Assembly: GCA_902826835.1 (NCBI GenBank)
Contig: CADEGH010000010.1
Coordinates: forward strand, 62,001 to 126,000
Reading direction: 5' to 3'
Length of the DNA: 64,000 nucleotides
Source of the DNA: an uncultured bacterium
Lineage (GTDB): Bacteria > Planctomycetota > GCA-002687715
The notes beneath the pieces were generated by a model that saw nothing but the letters and a program-made list of their open reading frames with translations, was not told the DNA's origin and did not search any database. Position numbers and translations under genes: made by a program. The stretch's first letter is position 1. Every line of letters starts with the position of its first letter. This document shows, in pieces, positions 12,681-26,470 of this stretch.

Positions 12681-14205
12681 GGGGTTTGGGCCTTGGGACA
12701 CCGGAAGCGCGCGATTCTATGAGCTCGCGGCGCAGGAGCTTCCCGGATGCGGAGCGGGGCAGGTTCGGCCGGAAGTGGATCTCACGGGGCACAAAATGAG
12801 GGGGCAGCTTCTTGGCGAGCTGCGCGCGCAGCAAGACGGCACTCGGAGGGCTTTCGTTCTTCGCGACGATCCACGCGATGACACACTGACCCCGCACCGG
12901 GTCGGGAACACCTGCGACCGCGGCGTCAGCGACCCCGGGCAGGCTGCGCAGGAGATCTTCGATCGCCGACGGGTAGATCTTGTCGCCGGAGACGTTGATC
13001 CGATCGTCCTTCCGTCCGACGAGGACAATTTCGTTGTGTTCGGTCAGGAAACCCATGTCGCCCGTCGCGAGCCAGCCAGAAGTCAAGGGCGCGACCGGGC
13101 CATTCCCGCCACTCCAGTATGCGGTGATGACATTGGGGCCCCGGCACTGGATTTCTCCGGTTGCGCCCGCGCTTACCGGCTGCCCCGCATCGTCGACGAT
13201 GCGCACCTGGACTTCGGGATGCGGGCTGCCCACGCACCCCGCCGGGCGTTCGGTCGGGTTGGGCCCGCGCACGCTGACCGCCGAGGCCGTTTCGGTGAGC
13301 CCGTAACAGTCGAACACGCGGGCCCCCGGAAAGGCCTGGTGGAGTGCCTGCCTTTGGGCCTCCGGCATCGGCGCGGCGCCGTGGATGAGGGTGAGTCCGG
13401 GCGAACTCGGAGGCGGACGTCTCCCGTGCAGTAGCGATTGAAAGAACCCCGGTGTGCCCATGACCGCGTTGGGGTGAAGTTCCTGCCAAGCCCGCGCCGC
13501 GCTCCGCACCTGCAGGTCCGGCGGCAACACCACGCAGGCGCCACGCCACAGGGTCCCCATCACTAACGGGTGGTACACGACGTGGTGGAGCGGGGCGAAC
13601 ATCAGCGCTGCCGTCGTCGGGCTGAATCCCCAGGCGTCCATCCACAATTCGACCCCGCGGAGGACTTGGGCGGCCGTGAGGCCGATGGCCTTCGGACGAC
13701 CGGTGGTCCCGGAGGAGCAGAGAATGACGGCCGGGCGACCAAGGTCGGGGGCGGCCGTCGACCCGTCCGCAACCGGGTGCCAGCGCCAGTGGCAACGGGG
13801 CCCGGGGAGGGAGCCAGGGCTCACCGCGACCCTTGACCCCTCGCTTGAGGGAAGACCCTCCGAGGCGCGAAGGATCCAGTGCGGCCGCAGGGTTTCCAGG
13901 AGCCCGGCGTTGGCCTCGATTTCGGAAGAATCCGGAACCGGGGCCGCGACGCCCCCGACCAGGAGAACGGCGGTGTGGGCGAGGATGAAGGGGAGACCGT
14001 GGCCTCCCACGATCACGACGCGTTGCCCCGGGCAAAGCCCTCCGGCCGCCAGAGCCGCCGCCAACGATTCGGTCGCGATTCGGAACTCGGTATGGGTCCA
14101 TTCCTGGTCGATAGACCGGATGGCGAGGCGATCCCGACCCGTTTGGGCACCTTGCCAGAAGGCCTGCGCGAGGGGAGAGGGGATTTCGTGGACCATCATG
14201 GACAA
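12673..14205 (-). CDS. AMP-forming acyl-CoA synthetase / ligase (ANL superfamily)
   Basis: 510 residues; Met1, Met3 and Met4 are all possible starts. All ANL core motifs are readable: CSSGTTGRPK at 163-172 (phosphate loop), YGLTE at 301-305, TGD at 381-383, VGRKDDRI at 396-403 and the catalytic lysine 489 in SASGKLLRRE. The enzyme would adenylate a carboxylic acid and pass it to CoA or a carrier protein. The acid cannot be predicted, and no carrier-protein gene is visible nearby. It is first in the run AMP ligase, SDR, flippase, mutarotase, pepQ, all with overlapping ends, and is divergent from the sugar-transferase operon. Confidence 0.88.
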   Translation of the reverse strand: MSMMVHEIPSPLAQAFWQGAQTGRDRLAIRSIDQEWTHTEFRIATESLAAALAAGGLCPGQRVVIVGGHGLPFILAHTAVLLVGGVAAPVPDSSEIEANAGLLETLRPHWILRASEGLPSSEGSRVAVSPGSLPGPRCHWRWHPVADGSTAAPDLGRPAVILCSSGTTGRPKAIGLTAAQVLRGVELWMDAWGFSPTTAALMFAPLHHVVYHPLVMGTLWRGACVVLPPDLQVRSAARAWQELHPNAVMGTPGFFQSLLHGRRPPPSSPGLTLIHGAAPMPEAQRQALHQAFPGARVFDCYGLTETASAVSVRGPNPTERPAGCVGSPHPEVQVRIVDDAGQPVSAGATGEIQCRGPNVITAYWSGGNGPVAPLTSGWLATGDMGFLTEHNEIVLVGRKDDRINVSGDKIYPSAIEDLLRSLPGVADAAVAGVPDPVRGQCVIAWIVAKNESPPSAVLLRAQLAKKLPPHFVPREIHFRPNLPRSASGKLLRRELIESRASGVPRPKPHE

Positions 14206-14457
14206 AGCGGTGCGGTGGCGCGGGTTACGACGGGGAGTCAGACTCCGGCGAAACCAGCCGCCGAGATTACCGCCCGGGACCGATTGGAGTGGACAAGACC
14301 GCTCGAAGCTGCGTACCGTGGGTCGGGAACGCCGCCGGATTCAGCCCCGGTCTCCGCTCCTGCCTTGTCGGCATTTTCCCGTCACCAGAACGCCAGCGCT
14401 GCCGCTCCCGATAATGAGGGGTTATGCGCTCCTCGTTCCGATTCGCTCCTGCCCACC
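14206..14457. promoter_or_regulatory. divergent promoter region of the two glycan operons
   Basis: This 252-base spacer separates the minus-strand AMP-ligase run from the plus-strand sugar-transferase run, so promoters for both must lie here. No confident -35/-10 pair could be assigned by eye. The extended reading frame that crosses it lacks coding character. Confidence 0.4.
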
Positions 14458-15222
14458 ATGAATCCCCGGACCCTCCCCGCCGCTAACGGTGTCACACCTG
14501 CTTCCGTACGGCCCCGGGAGGCCGGAATTCCCCTCGGCAAGCGAGTCTTCGACTTGGCCGTGGTCGCGCTCGTGGCCCCGATCTGGATCCCCACCTTGCT
14601 CTTCTGTTCCCTCCTGGTTTTGATCCTGACCGGCTGGCCGGTGCTCTACATCTCGAAGCGCCGTGTGGCTCGCCACGAAAATCGGCGGATCGCCAAGTTT
14701 CGAGCGATGGTGCGCAACGCCGAGCGCCTCGTGAACCGCGACACCGTGCCGGTCTCCGATCAAGCCTTCCTGAACGTGACCCTCGATTCCCCGGTCTACA
14801 CCGGAGTCGGGCGCCTGCTCGAACGGGCTTCCTTGACCGAACTGCCGCAGCTCTTCCACGTTCTCTCGGGCAAGATGACGTTGGTCGGAAACCGACCCTT
14901 GCCGGAAAACGTGATCGCGGCGCTCAAAACCCGCCATCCCGAGGTCGAGGAGCGATTTGCCTCCCGCACCGGCATGACCGGTCCCGTCCAACTCGCGGGG
15001 CGCGATCGGGTCAGCGACGGCGAGCGGCTGCGCCTCGAAATCGCGTACTCGCGGCGGGTGATGGAAAACTACTCGCCGATCTTGGATCTGAAGATCCTGG
15101 TCTTCACGGTCCTGCGCTGCGTGGGCTTGATGCGGCCCCGCTCGATCGATGAACTTCTGACTTTCCTCGGGCTCGACGCCTACCGAACCGCCACGGTCTC
15201 GCAGCCCGGCAGTCCGGTCTGA
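14458..15222 (+). CDS. undecaprenyl-phosphate sugar phosphotransferase (PssZ/WcaJ-type initiating transferase)
   Basis: 254 residues from ATG at 14458. After a short polar head, KRVFDLAVVALVAPIWIPTLLFCSLLVLI forms the single N-terminal membrane helix usual for short bacterial-sugar-transferase proteins. The cytoplasmic catalytic part has KFRAMVRNAE, then LLERASLTELPQLFHVLSGKM, TLVGNRPLP and the R-x-GMTG-x-VQ block. These are the PF02397 signatures. It transfers a sugar-1-phosphate from a nucleotide sugar to undecaprenyl phosphate, the first membrane step of repeat-unit synthesis. It heads a plus-strand run with a GT2 and two acetyltransferases. Confidence 0.92.
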   Translation: MNPRTLPAANGVTPASVRPREAGIPLGKRVFDLAVVALVAPIWIPTLLFCSLLVLILTGWPVLYISKRRVARHENRRIAKFRAMVRNAERLVNRDTVPVSDQAFLNVTLDSPVYTGVGRLLERASLTELPQLFHVLSGKMTLVGNRPLPENVIAALKTRHPEVEERFASRTGMTGPVQLAGRDRVSDGERLRLEIAYSRRVMENYSPILDLKILVFTVLRCVGLMRPRSIDELLTFLGLDAYRTATVSQPGSPV

Positions 15223-15241
15223 TCCCCCCATCTCCTCACCC

Positions 15242-16240
15242 ATGACCAGCTCTCCTCGCTCTTCCTCGCCGCGTTTGAGCGTGGTCATGAATGTCTGGAA
15301 TGGCGAGCGGTTTCTCGAGCTGGCCATCGACAGCGTCCTGAACCAGACCTATCGCGACTTCGAGTTTCTGATCATCGACGATGCGTCGACGGACGGGAGC
15401 TCGGCCATCTTGGGTCGGCTCACCGATCCTCGTGTCCGCGTGGTTCGCCTTCCCGAGCGGGTGCCGCTCGGAGCTGCCCGCAACCACGGAGTGGAGGCCG
15501 CACGCGGCGAGTGGATCGCGTGGATCGATCAAGACGATTTGTGGATGCCCGACAAACTGAGCCGCCAGATGGAGCTCATCGACCAACACGGCGGGCCTGA
15601 CCTCGGCCTGGTGTTCGGCCGCACCCTCTATCTCCGTGGGAACAAGTCCGGGCCGGATGTCGCATCGCAGTGCGAGTACGAAGATTTGCCGACCGGCTCG
15701 ATCCACCGCCCCCTGCTCGAACTCGGTTGCTTCATTTCGATGAGCTCCCTGCTCGTGCGCAAAGCGGCCTGGATGCAGGTCGGCAACATTCCCGACCGTT
15801 ATCAGGTGGCCGTCGACTACTGGTTGGCGGCGGCCGTTTCCAAGTCTTGGCAGGCCTTGGCGGTGCAAGACGCCTGTGCGTGGTACCGCCAGCACGAAGC
15901 GAACATGACGTGGTCGTTCGGCTTTCGAGCCTACGAAGAAGCCCACGCCATCGTGGAGGAGTTCGCGGACGCTCTGCCGGCGGCGCTCGCGCGTCGCCGC
16001 CAGCGAGTGTGGCAGACGCTGATGAGTGTCGAGCAGTTTCGGACTCCCGGCCAGCGCGGGGCGGCGGTGGCCCGACTGCTTTCCCGCGGCTCTTTGACGT
16101 ACCTCTTGAGCCGACCCCTCGCCTGGCTCAGTCGTCGGCTGCGCCGCCAATGTGCCGGGGGTTCCCCCGCGCTGCGGCGGTACGAGGCGGAGCGGCGAGA
16201 ACCGCGGCCTTCGAACGAAGCGGTGTCGAGACTCGCCTGA
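15242..16240 (+). CDS. family 2 glycosyltransferase
   Basis: 332 residues. The GT-A fold is clear: LSVVMNVWNGERFLELAIDSVLNQT at the N-terminus, FEFLIIDDASTDGS, the sugar-nucleotide region GAARNHGVEAARGEW, and the metal-binding DQDDLWMPDKL. The C-terminal third is basic and arginine-rich. It should add one sugar to the lipid-linked intermediate. It starts 19 bases after the sugar phosphotransferase, and its TGA shares bases with the ATG of the next gene (TGATG). Confidence 0.9.
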   Translation: MTSSPRSSSPRLSVVMNVWNGERFLELAIDSVLNQTYRDFEFLIIDDASTDGSSAILGRLTDPRVRVVRLPERVPLGAARNHGVEAARGEWIAWIDQDDLWMPDKLSRQMELIDQHGGPDLGLVFGRTLYLRGNKSGPDVASQCEYEDLPTGSIHRPLLELGCFISMSSLLVRKAAWMQVGNIPDRYQVAVDYWLAAAVSKSWQALAVQDACAWYRQHEANMTWSFGFRAYEEAHAIVEEFADALPAALARRRQRVWQTLMSVEQFRTPGQRGAAVARLLSRGSLTYLLSRPLAWLSRRLRRQCAGGSPALRRYEAERREPRPSNEAVSRLA

Positions 16241-16794
16241 TGCTGACGCGGCGCGAGACCCGGGCTCGGCTGCGCTGCGATTGGGAGCGCATCGAGGCGT
16301 ATCGATCGCAGATCGGCCTTCCGACGCCGGTCACTCGCTGGGTGGTCCCTTCGTGGCTCGCAGTGTGGTGCTACCGGTGGGCTCGCCATCACCACCTGCG
16401 GGGCCGCGGGCTCCGGGGGCGACTGTGGGCGCACCTCGGTCTTTGGCTTACCGGCGCGGATCTTCCTGCGGGCGTCGATCTCGGGCCGGGTCTGCTGCTC
16501 ACCGCGCCCGCGGCCATTTCCCTCTGCGGTCGGGCCGGGCGCAATTTGACCGTGCACGCTTTGTCGGGCTTGGGCGGCGAACTGGGAGCGGCGGACGTGG
16601 GAGCCGGTCCTGGTATGCCCTGGCTGGGGGATGACGTCACCCTCGAACCCCACGCGGGGGTGCTGGGGGCGGTGCGGATCGGCGACCGCGTGCGGATTCG
16701 GTCGGGGGCGATCGTGACCGAGGATGTGCCCGCGGATGGTGTCGTCGAACCCTCCGCGCCTCGTGTGCTGAGGGCACCCGGGGGGCGGACATGA
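16240..16794 (+). CDS. CysE-like hexapeptide acyltransferase, first of a tandem pair
   Basis: 184 residues from the ATG at 16240, inside the stop of the GT2 gene. The N-terminal half is helical and basic. The C-terminal half has hexapeptide-type beta-helix turns (VDLGPGLLLTAPAAISLCGRA, then VTLEPHAGVLGAVRIGDRVRIR) resembling serine O-acetyltransferase. The family's usual catalytic histidine context (HxTG) is changed, and the protein is shorter than CysE (about 270). In this setting an O-acetyl or other acyl transfer onto the polysaccharide is more likely than cysteine synthesis, by inference from neighbours. Confidence 0.72.
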   Translation: MLTRRETRARLRCDWERIEAYRSQIGLPTPVTRWVVPSWLAVWCYRWARHHHLRGRGLRGRLWAHLGLWLTGADLPAGVDLGPGLLLTAPAAISLCGRAGRNLTVHALSGLGGELGAADVGAGPGMPWLGDDVTLEPHAGVLGAVRIGDRVRIRSGAIVTEDVPADGVVEPSAPRVLRAPGGRT

Positions 16795-17390
16795 CGGCCT
16801 CATCGCAAGCCTGTCCGCACCGCGACCTGCGAGAGGCATGGCGAGACTGGTGTGCCGATCTCGATCGGCACCTCGAGGCGACTTCCCCCTACTCGGCTCG
16901 ACGCGGACGGTGGCGAGGGCGGCTCTCGGTGGCGTTCGCTCCGTCGCTGCTCGCGCTTCTCGGACATAGGTTGGCGCACGCGGCCGGTTGTCTCGGGCTT
17001 GGGTGGTTGGCCGCGCTGCTCTCCGCGTTCAACCGCTGGATGTGGCGCGTGGACTTTACTCCCCGAAGCTGCCTCGGAGGCGGGACATTTCTGCCCCATC
17101 CGGTGGGAGTCTCGTTCGATGCCGATGCCGGACCTGCCCTCACGCTCTACTCTCAGGTGGTTTGTGGGCCGAACGACGCCTCCGGACGGCCGCGCCTTGG
17201 TCGGGGCGTGACCCTCGGAGTGCATTCGGTCGTGATGGGAGCGGTGGACGTCGGCGACGGGGCCACCATCGGCTTCCGTGGCGTCCTCACGAAGAATCTC
17301 GACGCGGGGGCGGTGCTCGTGTCCGGCCGACGCCCTAAGATCAGCCTTCCCGGTTCGCCTGACCATCTCTCGGAGGAAATTGCGCCATGA
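16791..17390 (+). CDS. CysE-like hexapeptide acyltransferase, second of a tandem pair
   Basis: 199 residues, starting with a four-base ATGA overlap with the preceding acyltransferase. The hexapeptide-type turns are clearer here: FLPHPVGVSFDADA, then RLGRGVTLGVHSVVMGAVDVGDGATIGFRGVL. The histidine in the FLPHPVG context is where serine acetyltransferases have their catalytic histidine. Similar size and order to its neighbour suggest a tandem duplication with divergence, or a heteromeric pair. The probable role is acylation of the repeat unit. Confidence 0.75.
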   Translation: MTASSQACPHRDLREAWRDWCADLDRHLEATSPYSARRGRWRGRLSVAFAPSLLALLGHRLAHAAGCLGLGWLAALLSAFNRWMWRVDFTPRSCLGGGTFLPHPVGVSFDADAGPALTLYSQVVCGPNDASGRPRLGRGVTLGVHSVVMGAVDVGDGATIGFRGVLTKNLDAGAVLVSGRRPKISLPGSPDHLSEEIAP

Positions 17391-20300
17391 GGGAACCCAC
17401 CACTCCGACGCGATCGCGCGCCAGGCTCTTGAGTCTCGGAGCCTTTGGCCTCGCCGCCCTCTTCAATCGTCGCGCTGTGGAGCGCTTTGTCGCGCCCGAC
17501 GAAGTGTTTCAGAGTTCCGCGCCAGTCATGGGCGTGTACGCCATTCAGGTCGGGCTCGTGCTGGTGGGGCTTTGGTTACTCCGTTGGCCGCCCCGGTCCG
17601 TGACGACGCGTCGCCTCCTTGGGGCCTCGATGGCGCTGGGGCTGGCCCTCGGAGTCGCCGCGAACTTGGTCGCGTTTCGGATCGTGGAACCCAAGCCGGA
17701 AGTCGCGAAGGCAGTTCGGACCATGATCGCCTCCGAGAACCTGCTCCTCGACCTCAAGCTGCGCTTGAAGAGTCTGTCCAAGGCGGCCCTCGATCTGGAT
17801 CTCAGTGGTCCGGAATCGCAACCCTTGTTTGCGGCGGAAGTGGAGATCTGGGACCTGGACGATGCTTCGCCGCCCGCCCGGGCCACCGCGTTGGAGGCTA
17901 GTGCGATCGAGAAACTCACCTTCCCACTGGCCGCGGCGCCCCATCTCCGGCCGCGAGAGGATCTGCGCCTGTGGGCACCCCTGTGGCGCAACCTGCGCTA
18001 CTTCCGACACGGCGGGTTCGGAATCGTGCGCGGCGACTACGTCGATGCGGATCACCGCCGTTGGGAGTGCGAGGCGACCTTCGATGGAGTCGCCCGCACA
18101 GGGGGTGGCAACCTCTGCCAACTTTCGCTGGTCGCGATGGTGACCTTCAGCCGCGAAGGGGTGGCCGGGGAGCGCGAAGATCACGCCCCGGACTGGAGCA
18201 TCGTGAAGTGGCGCACGACGAAGTGCACGATGATCGAAAGCCCCTCCTCCCTGTTCAGCGATGTCACGTCCCGAGTCCTGCTTGAGGAGAAGACCCGACG
18301 CCGAGCGATCTCTTCGCCGCATCAAGAGCAGGTGCTGGCCTCCTATCTCGACCCCGATTTCGAACCGCCCTACCCGTACTGGTCGCGTCCGGCCTACGAC
18401 GACCATCCGGGAATCGCGGCTACCGACATCGATCAGGACGGATTCGACGACCTCTACATCGTCGATCGTGCGGGCAAGCATCTACTCCTCCGTAACCGGG
18501 GCGACGGGAGCTTCGAGGAGTGCGCGGAGAAGTACGGCCTGGACCTCGAAGGACACGGCAACGCGGCCTTGTTCGCGGACTTGGACAACGACGGCGACGC
18601 GGATCTCGTGCTCGCCCGCGGCCTTCGCCCGAGCCTCATCCTGACGCGCGAGGGCGATCGTTTCGTGGATCGTTCGGTGGAAGTCTCGGATCGCCCGCTG
18701 CCCGCCCTCGTCAGTTCCGTGGTGGCCGCGGATGTGAATCGGGACGGTCTCCTCGATCTGTATTTCTCGACCTACGCACGTGACAAAGTCTCGGCCGCCT
18801 ACGAGCAGAAGCGACTCGATCCGGATCAGCCGGTATTGGCCGAATTCTTGCCGGAGAGCGAAGCGAAGGCGTTGACGCAGCGGCTGCTCGCCGCGTCGAC
18901 CAACATCATTTTGGACTGCCCGGGGCCGCGCAACGTGCTTCTCGTCAATCGGGGAGGGGGACGTTTCTCGGACGACGGCGGCGCCTCCGGGCTCGATGTG
19001 GGACGCAACACCTACCAATCCACCTTCGTCGATTTGGACGGAGACGGCGACCAGGATGTCTACTGCGCCAACGACTTCGCCCCGAACAACCTCTTCCTGA
19101 ACGACGGCAAGGGACAATTCCGGGACGTGAGCCGCGATAGTGGCACCGAGGATTTGGGATTCGGCATGGGCGCGAGCTTCGGCGACTACGACGACGACGG
19201 CGACCCCGATCTCTACGTCTCGAACATGTTTTCGAAGGCGGGCCGGCGCATGACCGTGCAGGTCCCCGGCATCGACCCGCGCTTCACCGCGATGGCCGGA
19301 GGGAACTCGCTCTTTCAAAACAACGGCCAGACCTTCGCCAAGGTCTCCGGAATGTCCGAACCGGCGCAACTCGTCGAAAAGTCGGGTTGGGCGTGGGGTG
19401 GCCAGTTCCAGGACTTCGATGCCGACGGCGATCTCGACCTCTACGCGGTCAGCGGCTACGAAACCGCCCCGCTCGGAGTCGAAGGTCCGGTGGACCGGTG
19501 AAGTGACTTTTGGCGCACGGTCGTGTGCCATGACCAAGGGCTCGATCTTCGTGGACGGGACCTTTCGCAAGGCCGCTTCGGCGGCGAAGTCGGCAACAAG
19601 AACTCGCTCAGCGGGCATGAACGCAATCACCTCTTCCTGCGGGACGAGACCCGGAAGAACTACGTCGACGTCGCCGGCGTGGCGCTGGTCGACAGCGAAG
19701 CGGATGGACGGACCTTTGCGGTGCTCGACTGGGACAAGGACGGGGCGCAAGACCTGGTGCTCGTGAACGCGAACAACCCGACGATCCAGATGTTCCGCAA
19801 TCGGAAGAACGAAGTCTCCGGACCCGCAAACGTGATCGGAGTCAAGCTCGTGGGTGGCCAGAAGTCCGGCGCTCCGTCTACGCAGTGGAGTGCTCGCGAC
19901 CCGTTTGGCGCTCGAATCGAGATCGAGTTCTCCGGACGAAAAATCGTGCGGTTCCTGCACGGGGGAGAGGGCTTCGCGGCCCAAAACTCCGGCACTCTCT
20001 GCATCGGGATCGGAGGCGCGACCGGCGTCGATTCGCTCCGCGTCCTCTGGCCCTCGGGAAAGGTCACCGCGCTTTCCGCGATCCGTGCGGGAACACTGGT
20101 CCGCATTCACGAGGATCCGGCGGACGTGAACTCCGCCGACGGCAGCGTGGCTTCCCCCTATTCACCTCCGGTGCCGCTGCCCGTGCCACCGGCATCGGCC
20201 GGCGGGGCGCGCTTCGACCTGTCCGAAGTCTCGCTTCCGGAGAAGACCCGGTTGGTCGTTCTCACAACCTTCGCGACGTGGTGCGAGAGCTGCAAGAAAG

Positions 20301-20608
20301 AGCTACCGAGACAGAAGCGACTGGCCCAGGCTCTTCTGGACCAGGGCGTGGCGTGGATCGGGGTCCCGGTCGACCCTGCCGACCAAGGTGCGAAGCTCCT
20401 CGCCTTTGAGAGTGCAAAGCGCCCGGGGTGGACGACCATGGGGGCTCCGAGTGCCGCGTTCCTCGAGCGATTGCGGGCCGCCCTGCTCGAGCGATTGAAC
20501 GTCGACCAGTTGCCGTCGTCCCTCGTGCTTGATCGGGAGGGGAGAGTGCTCTCCGCCCACTTCGGCTTGCCCTACCTCTCGAAGCTCAAGTCGCTCTTGG
20601 ATTCGTGA
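17387..20608 (+). CDS. membrane-anchored FG-GAP/UnbV (CRTAC1-type) protein fused to TlpA-like thioredoxin domain; one in-frame TGA, candidate selenoprotein
   Basis: A 1073-codon frame from ATG at 17387, four-base overlapped with the acyltransferase, is interrupted only by TGA at 19499-19501 (codon 705). Two hydrophobic segments (about 46-65, 80-100) anchor it. From about 345 there are six D-x-D/N-x-D-G metal-binding FG-GAP loops before the TGA (such as DIDQDGFDD and DLDGDGDQD), and a seventh (DWDKDGAQD) after it. The UnbV/ASPIC module, with IEIEFSGRKI and SLRVLWPSG, follows. A TlpA-like domain with Cys966-x2-Cys969 in TWCESC ends the protein. Domains on both sides make sense only as one protein, and residues after the TGA (SDFWRTVV) look like the same conserved segment. 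The alternative start at 19523 is a GTG inside a hairpin with no ribosome site. Explanations are selenocysteine insertion, a recent nonsense mutation, or a sequence error. Confidence 0.75.
19499..19530 (+). promoter_or_regulatory. SECIS-like hairpin directly after in-frame TGA
   Basis: TGA at 19499-19501 is followed by nine bases and then a stem of eight pairs: 19511-19518 (TGGCGCAC) with 19523-19530 (GTGTGCCA), containing one G-U pair, around loop GGTC at 19519-19522. Bacterial SECIS elements sit just after the UGA, with the loop roughly 16-37 bases downstream and a G early in the loop. E. coli fdhF has GGUCU in its loop. Here the loop starts 18 bases after the UGA. No selA, selB, selC or selD gene lies in this window, so the decoding machinery is unseen. 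Confidence 0.5.
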
Positions 20609-22112: not shown

Positions 22113-22766
22113 TCAGCTCCCGGTCGCCAGAATGAGGCCGAGCCGATCCTTGGGAACCGCCCGGACCACGTCCAGGGCCCGATGCATTTCGCGGCTCCTC
22201 GTCGTGTTCTCTTCGGCGAGAAGGAGGCAGCGATCGGCGGCGAGCGCCCATGCCAATGCGGTGTCGTCCTGCAGGAAGCCGCCGGCGGAGACCAAGAGGT
22301 CGACGCCCTGCAATTCTTCTTGGGCAAAAAACGCCCGGAGCCGGTCGGGGGAGAGCAGGCCACTCTGCCCCGAGACTCGATTGCCGATCGTGAGCAGTTG
22401 GAGACCAGGCGCCACCGATTGCAGATGGCGGCGAGGCGAATTCCGGTCGCTCAGACTGTCCAAGAGACCACCGCTCGAGGCCTTGCCTTCGAGCAGTGGC
22501 ATGACCCCAGGTAGCGTGCCTTCAACCAGGATCACCTCGCGGCCGTGGTCATCGGCGAGGAGGCGGGCGAGCAGAACGGTGGTTGCCGCGGCGTGGGCGG
22601 AGCGGCGAGGGCTTCCCACCACCACCCGGCAGCCGGAGCGCGGGTTCGCCGAGAGGGTCAATTCTCGAGCGAGCTGTTGCCAGTTGGCTTCGCCGGAGGC
22701 CCGGCGGGTCGCGCGGTTCAACACTGCCTCCAGGGAGGCCGAACGATTTTCGACGACGTCTCTCAT
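22113..22766 (-). CDS. BY-kinase/CpsD-like protein lacking the Walker A lysine
   Basis: 217 residues. Position after a Wzz-type gene, length and secondary-structure pattern fit the cytoplasmic kinase half of capsular tyrosine kinases (CpsD/Wzc C-terminus): CRVVVGSPRRSAHAAATTVLLARLLA, an acidic strand VILVEGTLPGVMPLL, and GVDLLVSAGGFLQDD. The phosphate-binding loop is degenerate: where kinases have G-x4-GK-S/T this has SPRRSAHAAATT. The C-terminal tyrosine cluster is absent. It may be a non-catalytic partner of the chain-length protein. It starts within the Wzz stop (ATGA). Confidence 0.7.
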   Translation of the reverse strand: MRDVVENRSASLEAVLNRATRRASGEANWQQLARELTLSANPRSGCRVVVGSPRRSAHAAATTVLLARLLADDHGREVILVEGTLPGVMPLLEGKASSGGLLDSLSDRNSPRRHLQSVAPGLQLLTIGNRVSGQSGLLSPDRLRAFFAQEELQGVDLLVSAGGFLQDDTALAWALAADRCLLLAEENTTRSREMHRALDVVRAVPKDRLGLILATGS

Positions 22767-24388
22767 GGCGACCCCCTCTCGACGCGCGCAGCGTCTCCGA
22801 GTTCACGAAGGGCCGCGCGAGCGTGGCCGGAGCTCAGGACGAGGGTTGCGGTGCTTCCCCCGAACTCGGCGAAGTCCTTCCATCCCTCGCGGCGAACGCG
22901 GCCCTGGATGGCCTCGACCAGGAACGCGGCAAGCGTCCCGAAGATCAGCCCCACGATGAGGGCCGCCGCCACCATCAATTTGGTGTTCGGCCACTTCGGA
23001 TCCTGGGGCGGGCGCGCGACGTCGACTTGGCGGAGGCTCGGCTGGGTCAGTCCGGCAGTGGCCTGCGACACGGTCGCCTGAGCCTTGCGATCGAGCAGAA
23101 CCCCGTATTCCGCGCGGACCTCGGAGAGCCTTCGGATCAGCGTCTGGACGGTGGACTGCTTCTCGGAGAGGCCTTCCAGGCGCGTTTTGAAGACGGATTC
23201 GGACTCCGCGAGCTTGGCGATTTCGGCCCGAAGGCCGCTCGACTGGGCCGAGAGTTCGCCGACCCGTTTGCGCAGCGCTTCCCTCATCTGATTGAGGGCG
23301 GTCGCTTCCGAACTGAGCACCATCTGCGAGGCAGCGGCAATGTTCCGCTCCAGAGTCGCGATCACGACCTCGACTTCCTTGATCTCGGGGGCGTCGGCCG
23401 GGAAACGTTGGAGCTTGGTTTCGCGGTCGAGCTTGACGCCGAGGACTTGGCCTTCCATGGCCTGGCGCAGGGTGTTGAGTTCTTCGACCCGCTGCGTCAC
23501 CTGTTCTTTTTCTTCCGCCTGCATCAACGATTCAAGCTGGCGGGTTTCTTCTTCCTGGCGGGCGAGCTCGGCGCGGCGGGCCACGAGATCCGCCTCGATC
23601 TTGGACCAGTGCGTGACCATCGCCTGTTCGCGCTCGAAATCGAAGTAGACCCCGTGCTTCTCGCGGTACTCCTTGAGCTGGTTCTCGATGTCCATCATGC
23701 GGCCGTGGGCATCGTTGACGGAGGCCTCGAGGGCTTTCACCGCATTGGCGGCTTCCGCTTGGTGGCGATCAGCGCGCTGCTTGATGTACGTCTGCGCCAC
23801 CCGGTTGGCGATTTCGGCCACCCGCGGGCTCGGACCCTGCACGATCAGCTTTCCGACGTGGGTGCCTTCCGCCACTTCGAAGCGGATGCCCTTTTTCATC
23901 TCGAGGAGAACATCGATCTTCTCTTTTTCCTCGGGCGTGAGGTCCCAGGGCGATTTTTCCGGCGGGAACCACTGGTGCTTGACCGAGCGGTACCAGTTGC
24001 CGAGGTCGGAGAATTGCCACCAACGGCGGACCAAACTGCCGAGCGGATGGTGGACATCGTCCCACTTGAGATCGAGCTCGCGCTGGACCGCTTCGAGCAC
24101 CGCGCCCCCAGTCAGGAGTTCGACTTCACTCTCCGCCTCGTCTTTGCGGAAGAGATTCCACTGGTCATAGAAGCGGTCGCGGGTCAGGTCGTCCTTTGGC
24201 TCGGCGAGCAACACCGCTTCCGATTCGTAGATGGGAGGACGGAGTTTCGAGTAACCGACGACCAAGCCAACGCTCATGATGACGACCGCCAAGATGAGCA
24301 GCGGATGGCGGCGCACGACCGCCAGGAGTCGCTTCACGGGCGAAAGAAAATCGAAGGTCTCTCGAGGACCGGTGGATTCTGGATACAC
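22763..24388 (-). CDS. Wzz/GumC-type polysaccharide co-polymerase (chain-length determinant)
   Basis: 541 residues. Layout is typical: a membrane helix at about 28-46 (HPLLILAVVIMSVGLVVGY), a Wzz periplasmic head starting with RPPIYESEAVLLAEP, a long coiled coil (about 195-420, rich in Glu, Gln and Arg) and a second membrane helix (TKLMVAAALIVGLIFGTLAAFLVEA) preceded by the proline-rich ARPPQDPKWPN motif. Such proteins regulate polymer length and link synthesis to export. A short cytoplasmic tail follows. The kinase domain found fused in some relatives is here the separate, degenerate neighbour. Confidence 0.92.
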   Translation of the reverse strand: MYPESTGPRETFDFLSPVKRLLAVVRRHPLLILAVVIMSVGLVVGYSKLRPPIYESEAVLLAEPKDDLTRDRFYDQWNLFRKDEAESEVELLTGGAVLEAVQRELDLKWDDVHHPLGSLVRRWWQFSDLGNWYRSVKHQWFPPEKSPWDLTPEEKEKIDVLLEMKKGIRFEVAEGTHVGKLIVQGPSPRVAEIANRVAQTYIKQRADRHQAEAANAVKALEASVNDAHGRMMDIENQLKEYREKHGVYFDFEREQAMVTHWSKIEADLVARRAELARQEEETRQLESLMQAEEKEQVTQRVEELNTLRQAMEGQVLGVKLDRETKLQRFPADAPEIKEVEVVIATLERNIAAASQMVLSSEATALNQMREALRKRVGELSAQSSGLRAEIAKLAESESVFKTRLEGLSEKQSTVQTLIRRLSEVRAEYGVLLDRKAQATVSQATAGLTQPSLRQVDVARPPQDPKWPNTKLMVAAALIVGLIFGTLAAFLVEAIQGRVRREGWKDFAEFGGSTATLVLSSGHARAALRELGDAARVERGSP

Positions 24389-24397
24389 GGTGAATCC

Positions 24398-25153
24398 TCA
24401 GGAGTCGTCGCTCAACTCTTGGATGAGCTTGTAGTTGACATAGGTGCCGAGAATCGCGTTCACGCCCGACAGAGGCTCGTTCACGAACTGTTTCATGTAG
24501 AAGTTGAACTGCCCAATGCCCGACTTCGGAACGAAGACGATGTCACCCGCTTCGAGCGGGAAATTCTGGAGGGAGAGCAGTGCGGCCGGTTGGCCTTCTC
24601 CGCGGAAGGGGATGATGATGGCCCGGAGGAATCCGTCCGCTCCGAGGCGGATGACGGAGATTTCCTCGTCGTTGGCGCTGTCCTTGAGGCCGCCCGAAAG
24701 CACGATGGCCTGCGCGGCGGTGGGGGCCTCACGCAGGGGCTTGGGTCCCACCGATCCCACTTCACCGGCGATGAACACGGAAGCGGGCCGGATCTCGGAG
24801 GCGATCACGGTGACTTCCGGATCTTTGATCTTGGAAGCGAGCGCCGCGGTGATGCCCGCGTCGATCTCGGGGAAGGTCTTGCCGGCGACCGGGAAGTCGT
24901 CCAAGTACGGCAGCGAGATCATGCCGTCAGGCCGCACCCCGTAGCTGCGGTTGAGCTCGGGGTGGAGGCGAACGAACAGGTCGATGACGTCCCCGGCGAC
25001 CACGACGTACTCCTTCCGCCAGCGGACGGTGGAGTCGATGACCTCGGGGCGGGCCTCGATCTCTTCGTAGGTGACCGGAGCGGTGCAGGCCCCGAGGCCG
25101 ACCAGGAGCAAAAGAATAAAACCCGCAAAGGGTTGGCGCATGGGAGAGTTCAC
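24398..25153 (-). CDS. Wza-type polysaccharide export lipoprotein
   Basis: 251 residues. The N-terminal signal ends in a lipobox (LLLVGLGAC) with the acylated cysteine near residue 23. The Poly_export motif follows (YVVVAGDVIDLFVRLHPELN and GVRPDGMISLPYLDDF), then a SLBB-like region (VFIAGEV, APTAAQAIVLSGGLKDSAN, LEAGDIVFVPKS). It should form or contact the outer-membrane export channel. It is short compared with E. coli Wza (379) because the C-terminal outer-membrane helix part is reduced to about 30 residues. It lies nine bases upstream of the Wzz-type gene in the same run. Confidence 0.92.
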   Translation of the reverse strand: MNSPMRQPFAGFILLLLVGLGACTAPVTYEEIEARPEVIDSTVRWRKEYVVVAGDVIDLFVRLHPELNRSYGVRPDGMISLPYLDDFPVAGKTFPEIDAGITAALASKIKDPEVTVIASEIRPASVFIAGEVGSVGPKPLREAPTAAQAIVLSGGLKDSANDEEISVIRLGADGFLRAIIIPFRGEGQPAALLSLQNFPLEAGDIVFVPKSGIGQFNFYMKQFVNEPLSGVNAILGTYVNYKLIQELSDDS

Positions 25154-25180
25154 GGGCAGGATCCTACGCGGATTTTTCCG

Positions 25181-26470
25181 TTATCGGGAGCGATGACGGG
25201 TTAACTCGAGGTCCACCCGCGCCTTATCGGCAAAGCGGCCCCAGGAAGCCGATTCCAAAATGAAGGATTCCAAGGCCCGGCCACGGCGTTCTCCTTGAGT
25301 CGGATTCCCGAGGACTTCCGCCAAGGTGCTGGCCATGGCGGCATCGTCGCTCGGGGGAACCAACCACCCGGTCCGACCCGGGGCGATCACCTCGGGGTTG
25401 CTGCCGACGGCGGTGGCCACCACCGCGCAACGGTGGGTGGCCGCTCGCACCAGGACGTCGCTCTGGTAGAGGTGTGAGTAAGCGATGACGACCAGGTCGG
25501 CGGCTTCGAACCACTTGGGAACGACCGCGGCGTCGACCCACTGATCGAAGAACGTGACGCGCGGGCCGAGTGCGAGTTGGTCGACGAGCCGACGCTCCAG
25601 GTCGAGCGTCCGGTGCCAGGGCCGCCCGACGATGCGCAGATGGGCGGAGGGGAAACGGGCCGCGATCTCGGCAAAGGCTCGGATCAGGGTCGGAAGGTCC
25701 TTGTTGCGCTTGATCTGACCGAAGCAGAGCAGGGTCTGCTCCTGCGCTGGGATCCCCAAGTGTTCGCGGGCGGCGGCTTTGCCCACGCGCTCCTGCGGCT
25801 CCAGGGGGGCGGCTCCGAGGTGCGCGACACCGATCCGCTCCTCCGGGATCCGAAACTGGTTCGCCAATCGTTGCTTCGCGAAGTGGCTCATCACCATGAG
25901 GCGGCTCGCGCTGCGGTAGATCCGCGCGTAGGCCTGGCGGCGGTCGGCATCCCAGTGCAGCGGCAAGACATCGTGGGCCACGAGCAAGACCGGAATGCCC
26001 GCGCGCTCGAGCCGGCGGATGAGCCAGCGATCGAACTCCGGCTGGAGGATGTAGTACCAGCAGACGACATCGTGGCGGCGCGCCAAGTCGACCAGGGCAC
26101 GGCCGGCCCGCAGGTAGTTCCAAGTCTTGCGGAGGCGACCCACATCCCCGACGATTCTCCGGAACACGATCTCGCGGGGGAACGGGGCGGCCCCGGGAAG
26201 GGGCGGAGCGAGATCATTGGTGGCGAGGGTCACCGCGACCCCCCTCTCCACTAAAGCGGTGGCGATGGCGACGTCGTGACGATCCAAAAGATGGCCGATC
26301 GAGTCGACGAGCAAGACCCGCAAGGGAGATCCGCACGACTCAGGAGCGGGGGGAAGTGACGGGAGTTCGGCCGGAGGAGGAGCTTCGCTCAAGATCGGTG
26401 CTCGCAAGGGGTCGGCGGGCGCTTCGGGAGAACGCCCAGCGGAGGCCCTCGAGGCCGAACTCCAGAGCAT
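25181..26470 (-). CDS. family 4-type glycosyltransferase (GT-B fold)
   Basis: Up to 429 residues. The start is uncertain: the frame runs to ATG 26470, inside the upstream GT2 gene, but conserved sequence begins with LRVLLVDSIGHLLDRHDV, and a TTG at 26323 lies just after the GT2 stop. The first 49 residues are proline-rich and antisense-like. The C-terminal domain has the nucleotide-sugar region of GT4 enzymes: LLCFGQIKRNKDLPTLIRAF, RIVGRPW, and a late ADLVVIAYSHLYQSDVL...GSNPEVI block in place of the usual E-x7-E. Predicted role: one sugar addition in glycan assembly. Confidence 0.85.
   Translation of the reverse strand: MLWSSASRASAGRSPEAPADPLRAPILSEAPPPAELPSLPPAPESCGSPLRVLLVDSIGHLLDRHDVAIATALVERGVAVTLATNDLAPPLPGAAPFPREIVFRRIVGDVGRLRKTWNYLRAGRALVDLARRHDVVCWYYILQPEFDRWLIRRLERAGIPVLLVAHDVLPLHWDADRRQAYARIYRSASRLMVMSHFAKQRLANQFRIPEERIGVAHLGAAPLEPQERVGKAAAREHLGIPAQEQTLLCFGQIKRNKDLPTLIRAFAEIAARFPSAHLRIVGRPWHRTLDLERRLVDQLALGPRVTFFDQWVDAAVVPKWFEAADLVVIAYSHLYQSDVLVRAATHRCAVVATAVGSNPEVIAPGRTGWLVPPSDDAAMASTLAEVLGNPTQGERRGRALESFILESASWGRFADKARVDLELTRHRSR

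Follow-up and report, generated by a model that had tools for sequence, protein, structure and literature searches.

The CRTAC1/UnbV-ASPIC family comprises vertebrate cartilage acidic protein 1 and the bacterial CRTAC1 proteins, in which an FG-GAP propeller is followed by an UnbV domain; the protein described here has the same order of domains. FG-GAP proteins annotated as members of the CRTAC1 family flank homologues of the hydrazine synthase genes in some bacteria (PMC12758564). The ResA/TlpA/DsbE oxidoreductases have their fold and their CxxC motif in common with the C-terminal domain of our protein. Selenocysteine (Sec), a bacterial SECIS (bSECIS) element, and a link to thiol chemistry are shared with the thioredoxin-fold selenoproteins of bacteria, e.g., the UGC-containing TlpA family, Prx-like proteins, and NF041054 with its WAxxUGC motif (PMC13188914).

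The gene lies in a stretch of 64,000 nucleotides that was analysed as a whole and is referred to here as the window. Its frame (17387-20608) has 1073 codons and, as the preliminary description of this DNA had reported, a single internal stop, the TGA at 19499-19501 (codon 705); the terminator of the same gene is also TGA (20606-20608). The start is an ATG downstream of GGAGGAAA that overlaps the stop of the preceding ORF as ATGA, which suggests that the two may be co-translated. Residue 705 is located between the sixth and seventh DxDxDG loops of the propeller, and both the translation and Pfam bear out the earlier division of the protein into six FG-GAP loops before the UGA and one loop, UnbV, and a thioredoxin domain after it. 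The features are as follows.

17387..20608, plus strand: candidate selenoprotein gene encoding N-terminal hydrophobic helices, FG-GAP propeller, UnbV, and thioredoxin-like domain, 1073 residues with Sec705 (translation, Pfam, structure model)
18407..19870, plus strand: FG-GAP repeat propeller, about residues 341-828, with seven DxDxDG loops; borders approximate, taken from the strands of the structure model (Pfam FG-GAP_3, 124 bits; Foldseek CRTAC1 9etn)
19499..19501, plus strand: in-frame UGA, codon 705, very probably read as Sec (TGA at this column in 102 homologues; invariant in the 36-row full-length alignment)
19511..19530, plus strand: bSECIS hairpin with an 8-bp stem, one G-U pair, and apical loop GGUC at 19519-19522 (fold and covariation)
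19904..20098, plus strand: UnbV_ASPIC domain, residues 840-904 (Pfam, 51 bits; cut-off 23.4)
20198..20560, plus strand: ResA/TlpA-like thioredoxin domain, residues 938-1058 (Pfam AhpC-TSA, 28.8 bits; cut-off 26; Foldseek ResA 1st9)
20282..20293, plus strand: CxxC (C966, C969), putative redox partner for Sec705 (kept in 31/31 rows that have the domain; tied to Sec in the comparison of homologues)

The FG-GAP repeats, UnbV_ASPIC, and AhpC-TSA/redoxin all scored above their Pfam cut-offs, which places the protein in the CRTAC1/UnbV family, and the redoxin domain holds WCESC at residues 965-969. An AlphaFold model with Sec represented as Cys (pLDDT 88.3, pTM 0.87) has a helix (705-714) that begins at the Sec position. 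CRTAC1 9etn was the only PDB sequence match and the best fold match (Foldseek E 5.5e-28), and ResA 1st9 was matched with an E of 6e-7. Several homologues have N-termini that, judged by eye, resemble lipoprotein or signal sequences. Rfam gave no match in the window, and PADLOC gave no hit. Exopolysaccharide-type genes (sugar transferase, glycosyltransferases, hexapeptide transferase, and Wzz) flank the gene at 13879-17390 on the plus strand and 22763-26467 on the minus strand, and in the window the gene comes after exopolysaccharide genes. The gene neighbourhoods of the homologues showed no stable partner; the neighbours were further FG-GAP/UnbV genes, TPR proteins, and sulfatases, along with assorted other genes.

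A search of 59 relatives revealed exactly one TGA in most strong homologues, and in an HMM alignment TGA occupied the identical column in 102 homologous sequences, the recurrence at codon 705 that had been named beforehand as support for Sec. These sequences come from MAGs labelled Planctomycetota, Verrucomicrobiota, Acidobacteriota, Gemmatimonadota, Deltaproteobacteria/Myxococcales, Aminicenantes, and Latescibacterota. The loop around the codon has the motif D-x-U-S-x-(F/L/Y)-W-R-x-V-V, from which some members depart further (e.g., DDLULSLIENVG); in a 36-row full-length alignment, the Sec column was conserved in 36/36 rows, S706 in 33/36, W709 in 36/36, and R710 in 36/36. On a 120-row tree, the U/non-U label required three changes (0 of 500 shuffles were as low), and the window sequence fell in a supported 33-row clade that consists of U rows throughout. 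Between related sequence pairs, dN/dS was 0.06-0.29 before the UGA and 0.09-0.46 after it, and such low downstream values indicate that the part behind the UGA is translated under purifying selection.

Copy number and distribution vary. When matches with exactly one TGA each were counted, without column-by-column calls, the Akkermansiaceae MAG ANT-87 (G085; 4.3 Mb; the genome of L066) had 13 and the Verrucomicrobiales MAG SP164 (G103) had 8. Among 195 sampled genomes of the phylum of SP164, only SP164 itself matched at E<=1e-60, so the family is patchy in that phylum. One Planctomycetota MAG carries three UGA-bearing copies in tandem (L075:2-7776). A further UGA copy (L136:774-2594) has another stop 20 codons on and three TGA within the match, and it is probably decayed or an assembly fault. 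A copy from a MAG labelled Gammaproteobacteria (L060) clusters tightly with copies from Gemmatimonadetes MAGs, which may reflect a misnamed bin, contamination, or transfer.

The preliminary description had also pointed to a SECIS-like hairpin behind the UGA, with an 8-bp stem, one G-U pair, and a GGUC loop starting at the 18th base. The hairpin was confirmed, with compensatory changes in addition. Its fold energy is -12.6 to -13.2 kcal/mol, and 17 nt separate the UGA from the loop, which begins at the 18th base after it (19519). The published bSECIS model specifies a loop of 3-9 nt, a stem of 4-16 bp, a G at loop position 1 or 2, a spacing of 16-37 nt, and an MFE <= -7.5 (PMC13188914). The window hairpin agrees with every one of these constraints: its loop has 4 nt and opens with G, its stem has 8 bp, the spacing is 17 nt, and the energy is about -13 kcal/mol. 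Hairpins with the loop at or beside base 21 recur in the homologues in two registers. For covariation analysis, groups A and B were defined by protein motif, and permuted 3' halves served as the control. In group A (55 sequences), 93.9% of the positions were paired versus 83.4% after permutation (maximum 87.6%, P<=2e-4), and the wobble base of the Arg codon tracked the base that opens the codon ten bases downstream: CGC accompanied Ala in 11/13 cases, CGT accompanied Thr in 6/6, CGG accompanied Pro in 4/4, and CGG/CGA accompanied Ser in 24/27. We saw no protein constraint that would predict this coupling. Group B, which includes the window, was 94.4% paired versus 92.1% permuted (P=0.002), and both L066 and L069 carry double changes, whereas the non-UGA homologues had no pairing excess (57% versus 56%). 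Alignments with groups chosen by register gave the same picture more strongly, this grouping being partly circular. A stem of at least 6 bp was observed in 82/102 sequences versus a mean of 56/102 under synonymous shuffling (maximum 68).

The machinery for Sec insertion, whose absence from the genome would have spoken against Sec, is present in full in the genome of the window (6.09 Mb, 94 contigs, 94% complete): SelA (TIGR00474, 500 bits), SelB (344 bits, contig C17), SelD (345 bits), and a tRNA-Sec with anticodon TCA, the genes for SelA, SelD, and tRNA-Sec lying no more than 3 kb apart on contig C5. The selD gene (G000:C5:258282-259205, L044) carries one in-frame TGA of its own, in GSGGUAAK, and SelD is probably itself a selenoprotein in this genome. 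The phylum of the window is Planctomycetota, judging by genomes of the same phylum whose SelA coordinates and scores coincide with those of named Planctomycetota MAGs. Across 392 genomes of this phylum, SelA was found in 70 of the 72 with a TGA copy among the matches listed (best matches, with at most four candidates scored per genome, so that 72 is a lower bound) versus 171/320 of the others (Fisher P=9.5e-15). Among the named UGA-bearing genomes, the count was 33/34. SelA was not detected in the UGA-bearing G008, G203, and G329 (77-87% complete), nor in G106. In Acidobacteria, SelA was also present in 15/16 genomes with a non-UGA copy and does not separate UGA from non-UGA there, which indicates that the loss of Sec in this phylum did not follow a loss of the machinery.

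Cys homologues at the Sec column are usual for selenoproteins, although not obligatory. A conserved Cys at codon 705 had been named as the other possible support for Sec, but this expectation failed: homologues that lack the UGA and keep the loop have S, M, Q, G, A, E, D, R, or N at this column, and the sole Cys belongs to a very divergent sequence (L018, branch length about 3) from a genome (G015) in which SelA was not found. The Sec reading survives this variety of residues, since the codon, the covarying SECIS, and the machinery all point the same way. According to the deep-Sep study, Cys homologues are now on record for every known selenoprotein, and the filter of that study demands either homologues with Cys or a known one with Sec (PMC12013277). 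Since Cys counterparts are nearly absent here, a CRTAC1-type Sec family would fail a filter of that type, and this near-absence probably explains why searches based on Cys/Sec pairs missed the family.

Collectively, the TGA shared by 102 homologues, the covariation of the SECIS, and the presence of SelA, SelB, SelD, and tRNA-Sec support the original proposal, and we have little doubt that the UGA at 19499-19501 is decoded as Sec, as far as sequence evidence can tell. One rival is that the UGA is a genuine stop, arising from a nonsense mutation or sequencing error, and leaves a pseudogene or truncated protein, perhaps with a separate ORF from GTG 19523. The TGA does break the frame, and GTG 19523 opens an ORF of 361 codons; however, TGA recurs in the 102 homologues, the part after it retains a dN/dS of 0.09-0.46, and the hairpin covaries, findings that ruled out a sequencing error or pseudogene. 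An error is not credible because the TGA is repeated in so many genomes. A restart at GTG 19523 was ruled out as well, since S706, W709, and R710, which lie between the UGA and this GTG, are conserved, and we regard the whole account as extremely improbable. Scarcely better placed is a UGA read as something other than Sec, either in a reassigned code or by programmed readthrough inserting Trp, Arg, or Gly. The assorted residues of the non-UGA homologues, none of the usual Cys kind, mean that homology alone does not name Sec. Against such decoding, the hairpin satisfies the bSECIS constraints, the complete set of Sec factors is present with SelA associated with UGA copies, and UGA also terminates the same gene, which ruled out reassignment of the code.

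The role of Sec705 is a separate matter, and here the preliminary description had noted as its weak point that the residues around the UGA form no obvious redox site. There is no local CxxU or UxxC motif, but a likely partner exists in the C-terminal CxxC, which is almost always absent where Sec is absent. In the 36-row full-length alignment, Sec (36/36) and the CxxC (31/31 where the domain is present) are the only broadly conserved chalcogen columns, and the L061 and L076 proteins have no Cys besides those of the CxxC. Many members have the thioredoxin-like domain directly after UnbV, others add TPRs, and others end after UnbV; 29 UGA members in the set show no such domain, and contig ends truncate a few of these. 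Where the tail is of sufficient length to hold the domain, CxxC was found in 68/72 members with Sec versus 1/29 without Sec, the exceptions being four UGA members that lack it and one non-UGA member that retains it. In several non-UGA Acidobacteria, the domain sequence is still recognisable, e.g., LLLNFWATASPPCREQ, with its cysteines eroded. A phylogenetic sign test of the co-loss did not reach significance, with only 2-3 independent contrasts in the tree. These data suggest that Sec and CxxC may form one redox unit, with few independent events behind the association.

Sec could instead be inserted for metal binding, a structural purpose, or selenium sensing, and not as a redox centre recycled by CxxC. 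The lack of a local motif, the assorted non-Cys replacements, and the 29 members without the domain would fit such a role; set against them are the invariance of Sec within the UGA clades, its predicted position at the start of a helix in the model, the fusion to a CxxC-bearing thioredoxin-like domain, and the parallel absence of Sec and CxxC. We consider a non-redox role doubtful, although a serious candidate, and we lean towards a catalytic redox role of Sec705. Under the overall explanation, which appears very likely to us, the protein is a selenoprotein on a CRTAC1 scaffold, directed by a bSECIS, that would act as an exported or membrane-anchored oxidoreductase with recycling by CxxC. SelB and tRNA-Sec would decode the in-frame UGA under the direction of the hairpin with its loop 17 nt downstream, and the product would presumably be exported or anchored in the membrane. 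Sec, predicted to open a short helix within a propeller loop, would then react with a substrate such as a peroxide or an oxidised thiol. In fused members, the oxidised Sec would be reduced by the CxxC of the ResA/TlpA-like domain of the same chain, an in-cis relay for which the chances seem about even; in members without the domain, a separate thioredoxin-like protein would presumably serve.

A family of this kind apparently has not been described so far, large as it is. The 2026 catalogue of 119 prokaryotic selenoprotein families, in which those of Haft and Tolstoy 2025 are included, has no FG-GAP, UnbV, or CRTAC1 entry (PMC13188914). NCBIfam gave no match above cut-off for the protein. Full-text literature in which selenocysteine, selenoprotein, or selenium is joined with CRTAC1, FG-GAP, UnbV, or VCBS repeat contained nothing relevant; the coverage is that of article texts, as distinct from supplementary material such as Table S9 of PMC4807772, which concerns selenoproteins of planctomycetes. 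We regard as evenly balanced the wider proposal that a selenoprotein family common in Planctomycetota and some marine Verrucomicrobiota has gone unnoticed for want of a Cys counterpart to its Sec, that a propeller Sec and a CxxC about 260 residues off would form in it an extracytoplasmic in-cis seleno-thiol relay, and that its paralogues, on losing one centre, generally lost the other and kept the scaffold. With this family, the selenoproteome of bacteria would gain a broad member in phyla seldom associated with selenium, and truncated or split annotations probably affect many genes of the CRTAC1 family. Because the selenoprotein family appears to break the rule of Cys homologues, other families may be hidden likewise. 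A widespread but obscure scaffold would also gain a testable redox role tied to selenium supply.

Glycine reductase selenoprotein A (GrdA) was long cited as the one selenoprotein thought to be without Cys homologues, which have since been reported (PMC12013277); GrdA and the window protein are unrelated, and their likeness is limited to this supposed lack. Compared with CRTAC1, to which the profile match contains no counterpart of the Sec loop, the window protein adds a Sec-bearing loop (D-x-U-S-x-x-W-R), and its family often adds a fused thioredoxin-like domain. That domain is ResA-like in fold but scored far below the NCBIfam subfamily cut-offs (ResA, 27.8 versus 170 bits; DsbE, 22.6 versus 123 bits), and, unlike the ResA/TlpA/DsbE oxidoreductases, it forms the C-terminal end of a propeller protein. 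In the thioredoxin-fold selenoproteins, Sec lies inside the thioredoxin-like domain, whereas here the domain keeps its CxxC and the predicted Sec is in the propeller, about 260 residues away.
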